64,000 nucleotides of DNA from an uncultured Pseudomonadota bacterium (GTDB lineage Bacteria > Pseudomonadota > Gammaproteobacteria > Ga0077536), in assembly GCA_903825645.1 (NCBI GenBank), contig CAIKBL010000009.1, positions 1 to 64,000 of the forward strand, written 5' to 3'. A program made the translations under genes and the position numbers. Each line of letters begins with the position of its first letter. The first letter of the stretch is position 1. Below are positions 1 to 2,438 of this stretch, piece by piece. The notes under the pieces were generated by a model that worked only from the letters and a program-made list of their open reading frames with translations, ran no database searches and was not told the origin of the DNA.

Positions 1-130
1 CAGCGCTTAGCCTTCAGCTTCCGCCAGATCCGCAGTCGGCCGCGACACCCTTGCTGTTCGGCTAACGCTTCCCCTTGTCGGGTGAGTAGAGGACTTCCAC
101 CTCCAAGTCAGTGCGCCCTGCCGGGCGCAC
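1..130 (-). mobile_element. 5' end of a group II intron, cut by the window edge
   Basis: Read on the minus strand from 130 downward, the sequence begins GTGCGCCC, matching the GUGYG 5' consensus of group II introns. It folds at once into an 8-bp stem (GTGCGCCC/GGGCGCAC), then shows a GAGG...CCTC hairpin and the AAGCGTTAGCCGAACAGC and GGGTGTCG stretches that I recognise from domain I of bacterial group II introns. The base before it is the G that ends the T8 run of the DUF1302 terminator, so the element sits directly behind an intrinsic terminator. That is the known target preference of class C (IIC) introns. The rest of the ribozyme and any reverse transcriptase would lie to the left, outside the window. 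The class assignment is inference; the 5' boundary is read from the sequence. Confidence 0.78.
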
Positions 131-131
131 C

Positions 132-161
132 AAAAAAAAGGCCGGCTTGCGCCGGCCTTTT
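132..161 (-). terminator. Intrinsic terminator of the DUF1302 gene
   Basis: GGCCGGC-TTGC-GCCGGCC forms a perfect GC-rich stem, with A8 on its left (T8 on the minus strand) and T4 on its right. It stands 30 bases after the DUF1302 stop codon and works best in the minus direction. The group II intron starts directly after its T-run. Confidence 0.88.
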
Positions 162-191
162 AGAGGCTTGAAATCTGTTTTCTAGCGAAAA

Positions 192-2438
192 CTAGAAGTA
201 ATAGGTCACGCGCGTGAACACTTCTTTCATGTTCTCGAACGTTTGCATCAGATTGTTGTTGTTGCCGCCGACATGGAACGGCTCGTTCGCATACAGGTCA
301 ATCTGCCAAGCACCGGAAGGCTTATAACGCAGCCCGGGCTGAATGAAGATACCCCCCATACGATCGGCCAACATCGCGAAATCCGCCCGCCAAATTAGGT
401 TCGGGAACGGCTGCTGGAAGGCGAACACGAAGTAATCCATCGAGTGGAGTCCGAAGTTCGATCTGGTCTGTTCAGAACCATTGATCGCATCGGTACCCGA
501 CCCGTTATAACCATCGAGTAAGCGACCAGCGAGATCTGACTGGGTGCGGTGCATCCACTCTGCCACCAAATAGGTAGCCGGGATTCCGGTGAAGATACTC
601 TGGTATTTTTCCAGAATAATGTCCGCCAGGATTTCGTCACGCTTGTCATACACGCTGCTTAACGATACTTCAGTGAAGGAGCGGTTCGGCGTGTATTGTA
701 CTTCACCACGGACAATCAATTGATCAAGCAGGTCGCCCGGCTTGGTGTTGATGATGTAGTTGAAGCCAACACCGACGTCCTGCTCACGCTTGAACTCGCG
801 GTGAATCGTGCCGCCGAGCGGTCCGAAGGCGGTAAAGAAACCGCTGACGGTATTGAAGGCCTTCGCCTTGCGCTGCCAACCATTAAGAGCCGCGCAGGGA
901 TGGGCTACCGTACAGGCTGCTGCGATGTTTGCCGCCGCCGCCCCATTAGCGCCGAAAGAGCCATCCGCCTGAACTAACGACGAAACCCCCTGAACGAAGT
1001 CCACACGGCCCTGCTTGTCCACAACGCCGATACCGTTCGCTGCTGCCAATCCGTGGCTCGCGTTCAATTCATAAATCGCGGTCGCGGCACCCTTGACGCC
1101 ATCCAATCGCACCCAACTCGCTTCATTGAACCAGTCCACATAGCTATTCGTGCCAATAGGATTCTGGAAGAATGATTGGCCGCAGCTTCCACCAGGCCCT
1201 GGATTCGAACCAGACGGGGGTCCACCAAGATAGCCAGTGACGGAGCAGAATGGGTTGAGCTTATAAACCGCCTGCATATTTTGGCTAGGGTTGTTAAACG
1301 GTCCGTTCTGGTTCCAGATGTAGACACCATCCGGCGCAACGCGGTCGACCGCCATGATCGATACCGTCAAGTCCTTCAGGAACAGGTCCGGCATGATTAA
1401 GCGAGCGCCGAAATTAAGCGTGTTCTCCATCTTCTGCCACGCAGCATCGTGGTTCAGATTCGTAACCACGAATCCGTCGGACACGACGTTGTAAGGCGTG
1501 AACGTATTCGGGATTTGGCTCGGGCTGAACATTTGGAGGAAGCTGTCAATTTCCCAGCTATTCCCAAACGTGTAGCTCGCGCGCAAGCCGGGCGACGCAA
1601 TACGCTGGTCGGAGTATTCCTCAGCCCCTGGACCGAAGAAAAGGTGACGACGTACGTCAAGGCCGTTGGCCACATCGAACACGCGGAAGAAGTAAGCTTC
1701 ACCCCACGCGATCTGCTGTTGACCAACACGGACCCAGGCGGAGCCATAGTTGAAGTCCGCGTACAAAGCTGGGATATCCAGCATCATGTCGCGGTTCTGG
1801 ACCTCTAGGCGATTGCCACGGCCACCACCAAAGTTGGCATCACTGCCGAAATAGCCCTTGGGGCCGCCGGCCATCTGATAATTGGGGCCCGGCTTCCCGT
1901 CGTCGCGGGTCGCACCCGTACCGTCAAAGTAAAAACGCAACTTACCGTAGGCCGCGATGTTTTCGTTAAACTTCGCTTGAATTTCAATCTCAGAACGCGT
2001 GTTCAACATGTTGAGTGGGTTGCCGGCGGTAGGCACTGGGTTCGGGTTCTTGGAGTTCGACAAGTACCCGCCCACCAGCTTGAAGTTTGCCGCACCAGCG
2101 GGGTTGCACAAGATGCCGTTGGCACCGCATCCGCCGAAACCAGAGTGGGTGATCAGTTGCTGGTTACCCGCAGAAGTAGCCGCAGGATTCCCGATGACGT
2201 TGTAGTTACCATGCGCCGGATCAACCATATGGCCGAAGGACGGTACGATGACGTTATTCGTCCTCGTTCCATTGTCGTGCTCGTTGGTCGGATTACCGCC
2301 GTCGTCGGTAGAAATCGCGATTTCTTCCCGGACGAAGCCGGTGATATTGAAGTCAACAGCAGATGCGATGCTGGGGATCACCGTGCTGGCAATCATTCCC
2401 CCGGCAATCAGCAGTCGCCTGGTTAGTTTATTTCCCAC
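192..2438 (-). CDS. DUF1302 family outer-membrane protein
   Basis: The 748-residue product has a signal peptide ending near residue 28 (SIASA before VDFN) and the DUF1302 layout: an N-terminal GFVREE-type strand, Gly/Asn-rich loops, and a C-terminus ending VTYYF, the aromatic terminus of outer-membrane beta-barrels. It is therefore probably a large outer-membrane channel or scaffold. The GTG start at 2438 is supported by AGGAG about 9 bases upstream. Family members commonly travel with DUF1329, YCF48-type and RND exporter genes, and all three are present here (2730-6271 and 16599-18011). This suggests movement of a hydrophobic compound across the envelope, but no substrate is established. It is transcribed alone from a 291-base leader region and ends at a strong terminator. 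Family assignment is firm; the transport role is inference. Confidence 0.9.
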   Translation of the reverse strand: MGNKLTRRLLIAGGMIASTVIPSIASAVDFNITGFVREEIAISTDDGGNPTNEHDNGTRTNNVIVPSFGHMVDPAHGNYNVIGNPAATSAGNQQLITHSGFGGCGANGILCNPAGAANFKLVGGYLSNSKNPNPVPTAGNPLNMLNTRSEIEIQAKFNENIAAYGKLRFYFDGTGATRDDGKPGPNYQMAGGPKGYFGSDANFGGGRGNRLEVQNRDMMLDIPALYADFNYGSAWVRVGQQQIAWGEAYFFRVFDVANGLDVRRHLFFGPGAEEYSDQRIASPGLRASYTFGNSWEIDSFLQMFSPSQIPNTFTPYNVVSDGFVVTNLNHDAAWQKMENTLNFGARLIMPDLFLKDLTVSIMAVDRVAPDGVYIWNQNGPFNNPSQNMQAVYKLNPFCSVTGYLGGPPSGSNPGPGGSCGQSFFQNPIGTNSYVDWFNEASWVRLDGVKGAATAIYELNASHGLAAANGIGVVDKQGRVDFVQGVSSLVQADGSFGANGAAAANIAAACTVAHPCAALNGWQRKAKAFNTVSGFFTAFGPLGGTIHREFKREQDVGVGFNYIINTKPGDLLDQLIVRGEVQYTPNRSFTEVSLSSVYDKRDEILADIILEKYQSIFTGIPATYLVAEWMHRTQSDLAGRLLDGYNGSGTDAINGSEQTRSNFGLHSMDYFVFAFQQPFPNLIWRADFAMLADRMGGIFIQPGLRYKPSGAWQIDLYANEPFHVGGNNNNLMQTFENMKEVFTRVTYYF

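Follow-up and report, generated by a model that had tools for sequence, protein, structure and literature searches.

The window analysed here, a stretch of 64,000 nucleotides that comprises bases 1-64000 of contig C9 in a genome assembled into 90 contigs (4.13 Mb), opens inside a class C group II intron which has almost certainly retrotransposed behind the intrinsic terminator of a DUF1302-family gene, and which most likely splits this gene from a gene of the ExbB family. Since base 1 of the window is also base 1 of the contig, the contig breaks off within the intron, which leaves no room in the window for D5 or a reverse transcriptase (RT), and the edge stems from the assembly and not from biology. 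The features at the junction are collected in Table 1.

Table 1. Features at and around the terminator-intron junction in the window.
Feature	Coordinates	Strand	Basis
Group II intron (assigned to IIC, bacterial class C), 5'-terminal 130 nt	1..130	-	5' end GTGCG at 130; homology, RF02001 register
First domain I hairpin of the intron	130-111	-	
5' exon, last 9 bases (T8-G)	131..139	-	same T-run and G in intron-free relatives L029, L031, L033
Putative IBS1, the terminal TTG of the 5' exon	within 131..139	-	position by covariation
Intrinsic terminator hairpin: 7 GC pairs, GCAA loop, A4 able to pair with the T run	140..161	-	hairpin conserved in relatives
DUF1302-family gene, 5' flanking, served by the terminator	192..2438	-	PF06980, E 5.9e-20

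On the minus strand the sequence reads as a hairpin with the arms GGCCGGC (157-151) and GCCGGCC (146-140) around the loop GCAA (150-147), followed by T8 (139-132) and a single G (131); an A4 tract (161-158) may extend the stem by pairing with the T run. At window 130, GTGCGCCC abuts this unit of 7-bp GC stem, T8 and G (157-131), and GTGCGCCCGGCAGGGCGCAC starts at the same position, directly behind G131. The preliminary description had held that a group II intron starts straight after the terminator stem and T8-G. This is confirmed on the minus strand, where the boundary can be placed to the single base, with G131 as the last base of the exon and G130 as the first of the intron. RNA folding of window 170-1 gave -82.4 kcal/mol (z -3.5), with the terminator and the first intron hairpin both formed.

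The best match of window 131-1 is to an intron on plasmid pAZKH of Azoarcus sp. KH32C (NC_020548.1; L006:3503 to about 5380), at 88.5% identity across 130 of 132 bases (E 3e-39), and an annotated ltrA gene (group II RT/maturase) lies ~410 bases downstream of the start of that intron. A match of this strength to an annotated intron marks the 130 nt of the window, far beyond chance, as group II intron sequence. The Azoarcus copy likewise stands behind a terminator hairpin, which is followed by TTTTTTCTTG; unlike the window copy, it is complete and encodes an intact 465-aa RT. Matches to the first 132 bases occur in 118 of 72,556 plasmid records.

The Rfam group II models, a check proposed in the preliminary description, agreed with the window copy in register and not in score. 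No Rfam family reached its gathering score in the window. The best group II model on window 1-200 was RF02001, with 19 bits against a cut-off of 32 over model positions 1-45, where the contig end cuts the match short; in the window as in Azoarcus the model starts at intron nt 86, so that the register is the same. Across the whole own genome RF02001 gave no match at E up to 1, and most of the 47 matches to window 1-200 in a relaxed Rfam search (E up to 10) were sRNA families placed on the terminator hairpin, which were rejected as chance. The Azoarcus (L006) and Pseudomonas HD6515 (L008) copies pass all three of RF02001, RF01998 and RF00029. The window copy has a GUGYG 5' end and a domain I in register with known introns, as expected of the 5' part of a group II intron.

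The assignment to class C draws on the proteins of the homologues and on the insertion site. The RTs of the Azoarcus and Pseudomonas copies (465 and 419 aa) pass TIGR04416, PF00078 and GIIM, and Pfam finds only RVT_1 and GIIM in them, with no endonuclease domain. Among solved structures in the PDB the nearest to the Azoarcus RT is, by a wide margin, the GsI-IIC RT (E 8e-143). The next entries range from 4e-111 to 5e-89, with 6me0 and LtrA below these (3e-39 and 6.5e-36), and by this comparison the homologue is nearest to the class C RTs. A site directly behind an intrinsic terminator, a mark of the class, is seen in the window and at 74 of 80 homologous junctions, and the empty sites of relatives agree with it. 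These lines of sequence evidence support the view that the window element is a IIC, or bacterial class C, group II intron, as had been proposed at the outset; the homologues with RT and catalytic domains, the empty sites and a 3' half on another contig all agree with that proposal.

To what extent the homologues share this kind of target can be judged from a search of the 84,980 species genomes in genome_contigs with the first 20 intron bases, which found at least 117 stretches, of which 80 junctions were listed and tested. Among these listed matches a hairpin and T-rich tail lie directly upstream of the intron 5' end at 74 of 80 junctions, as against 5 of 1,599 positions picked at random within these loci and 10 of 1,600 shuffles; the thresholds for hairpin score and T content were set after the junction list had been viewed, and the 80 are not all proven introns, several matching the window intron across only ~20 bases. 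Two of the six failures (L049 and L091) hold the reverse complement and contain introns with the 5' end GTGCGCCCTGCCGGGCGCAC; read in their own direction, they have a T-rich tail and, by eye, an upstream hairpin. At L054 intron homology is absent beyond ~26 nt, and L085, L107 and L119 failed because their hairpin scores of 9, 10 and 3 lay below the threshold of 12.

The short pairing between the exon and the intron was sought as covariation in 16 loci, retained out of 50 with enough flank among 84 candidates. In these 16 relatives Watson-Crick covariation links exon positions -1, -2 and -3 to intron nt ~181-183: the antiparallel neighbours exon -3/205, -1/203 and -2/204 (alignment columns) rank 2, 3 and 10 by mutual information, and the triple pairs in 0.896 of cells, whereas no triple in 300 permutations exceeded 0.708. 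The pair ranked first, exon -10 with column 533, forms base pairs in a minority of cases and was taken as noise. The covariation marks intron nt about 181-183 as the probable EBS1 of the relatives. In the window copy EBS1 would be expected ~50 nt past the contig end, as a predicted CAA at about intron nt 181 that would pair with the terminal TTG (IBS1) of the exon; we infer this pairing from the relatives.

The remainder of the intron was looked for in the own genome with the complete Azoarcus intron as query. Intron nt 1-129 were found on C9 and the part from nt ~1640 onward on both C44 (right end, minus strand) and C13 (left end), together with RT pieces at the end of C58 and one 79-base piece on C5; six matches at E 0.3 or worse were taken as chance. 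D5 scores no less than the RF00029 gathering value on two contigs other than C9, at the right end of C44 and the left end of C13. The middle of the intron is absent from the assembly, and of its own RT the assembly holds only the C-terminus, on C13/C44, with a premature stop. C13 begins at the exact intron base where C44 ends, and in about 240 aligned columns the two 3' halves show 3 mismatches and 2 gaps of one base; the shared break base and the near-identity point to a collapsed repeat. The sequence on C58 (C58:35797-36447; L002:1355-2005) is a 5'-truncated RT fragment of the same intron family, which runs off the contig end and has lost at least about 60 internal bases.

The preliminary description had suggested a comparison with an empty site, and such sites exist in three genomes of the same genus (L029, L031 and L033), in which the DUF1302 stop codon is followed by the terminator and the T-run-G, with no intron. 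The next gene after the empty site starts ATGGAAAT in all three and, as tested on L029, belongs to the MotA/TolQ/ExbB family. A fourth same-genus genome (L030, G002) has by reading a terminator without intron, the ExbB-family gene not being seen in the stretch shown, and in a fifth (L042, G003) the alignment ends at a contig end. With the DUF1302 protein as query against genome_contigs no relative was confirmed.

The own orthologue of the ExbB-family gene is 79% identical and lies on C44 (57650-57003, minus), reading away from the intron. Its presence there, taken with the gene order of the relatives, makes it most likely that C9 and C44 flank one intron, situated between the DUF1302 gene and the ExbB-family gene. 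The distance from the intron 3' end (placed by homology, ...CCCGAT) to the ATG of this gene is 393 nt, longer than the spacer of the relatives (roughly 145-215 nt by reading), and the first about 220 nt of the C44 spacer do not align with the relatives, so the empty sites do not fix the 3' junction to the base.

It is very unlikely that the C9 copy is instead a remnant of an intron. Such remnants occur, for at L025 (near 1500-1530; genome G014, C93:30871) a terminator is followed by the initial ~27 nt of a related intron and then, across an internal deletion, by RT sequence, and the own C58 holds its truncated fragment; C9, however, stops inside the intron and not at a junction, and the 3' end on C44 leads to the gene which follows DUF1302 in the three same-genus genomes. 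A rearrangement at the repeat that joins C9 to C13 has a still slimmer chance: C13 offers a second candidate 3' end, with an almost identical 3' half and the same start base, but gene order in the relatives favours C44. That the 130 nt are no intron at all, but some repeat or RNA with a chance likeness to GUGYG, has a vanishingly small probability. It would agree with the lack of a window match above an Rfam gathering score, but it is already refuted by the homology, which spans all 130 nt and keeps the register of complete annotated introns.

The history that best fits these findings is the following. A IIC intron retrotransposed right behind the DUF1302 terminator, on the same strand and leaving the terminator whole, its target presumably chosen by the known IIC rule of a terminator stem-loop plus a short IBS1-EBS1 pairing; its RNP would have reverse-spliced behind the terminator, after the T-run, so placing the intron between the DUF1302 gene and the MotA/TolQ/ExbB-family gene that follows it in relatives. 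The genome holds at least two near-identical copies, at which the assembler broke, so that the 5' end stands on C9 and the 3' ends on C13 and on C44, the latter being the partner to which gene order points. Past splicing and mobility of the intron are implied by this history. The suggestion that the insertion may affect the 3' end of the DUF1302 transcript found no support: the terminator is whole on the 5' side of the insertion, and no effect on this transcript is therefore expected. The ExbB-family gene could be affected only through a dependence on read-through or on sequence that the intron has displaced.

Group IIC, or class C, introns are known to insert after intrinsic terminators (Robart et al. 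2007, as summarized in PMC4424553 and PMC8919778), and in the mechanism outlined in PMC4424553, PMC8919778 and PMC7161350 the IIC RNP finds its target by the terminator stem-loop together with a short IBS1, and enters behind it by reverse splicing. Terminator-inserted class C introns resemble the present one in their position directly behind a rho-independent terminator on the same strand, in the 5' GTGCG, in an RT without En domain (in the homologues) and in a short IBS1-EBS1 pairing (predicted for the window copy); none of the differences is one of principle, the window copy being partly assembled and the genome's 3' halves carrying the RT stop. The window intron is thus a further copy of a well-known kind, and it raises no new question about class C introns. 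Its value is that an insertion targeted to a terminator can be read here cleanly, beside intron-free sites from the same genus, and that it shows how contig edges at such introns conceal gene neighbours, the flanking genes here standing on two contigs. The class C-attC introns of integrons, cited in PMC4424553, are of the same class and target the attC site, whereas the target here is a terminator.

The mobility of the element can be considered in the light of its RT lesion. In the 3' halves on C13 and C44 the RT frame reads ...ERAFRSAFQ*RGRGWNSG..., with a stop at residue 425 of 465 (Azoarcus numbering), which sits behind the GIIM domain (333-408) and about 40 codons before the RT end. This premature TAA is common to two near-identical halves at different sites (L003:1-60 on C13 and the right end of L005 on C44). 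Because both carry the same stop, the element may have lost the ability to move by its own means, and two copies with one lesion suggest multiplication either after the lesion or by an RT acting in trans; the shared lesion may also have arisen through segmental duplication or a two-step history. That the own copies multiplied despite an RT without its last ~40 residues is a doubtful reading; were it true, the copies could belong to a class C lineage that is non-autonomous and relies on an RT in trans, or the C-terminal stretch could be dispensable.

Two further loci deserve mention. On a plasmid of Polaromonas sp. P1-6 (L007:3501-3631) an intron 5' end stands behind a T-rich tail with no RT listed within the stretch; this intron is ORF-less or truncated, or its RT is merely unlisted in the PLSDB gene table. 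In the own genome, C42:54695-54769 (L004:1501-1575) holds an isolated D5-like match of 42.9 bits, over the RF00029 cut-off, on a contig with no RT domain match, and it is either a remnant or a chance resemblance.
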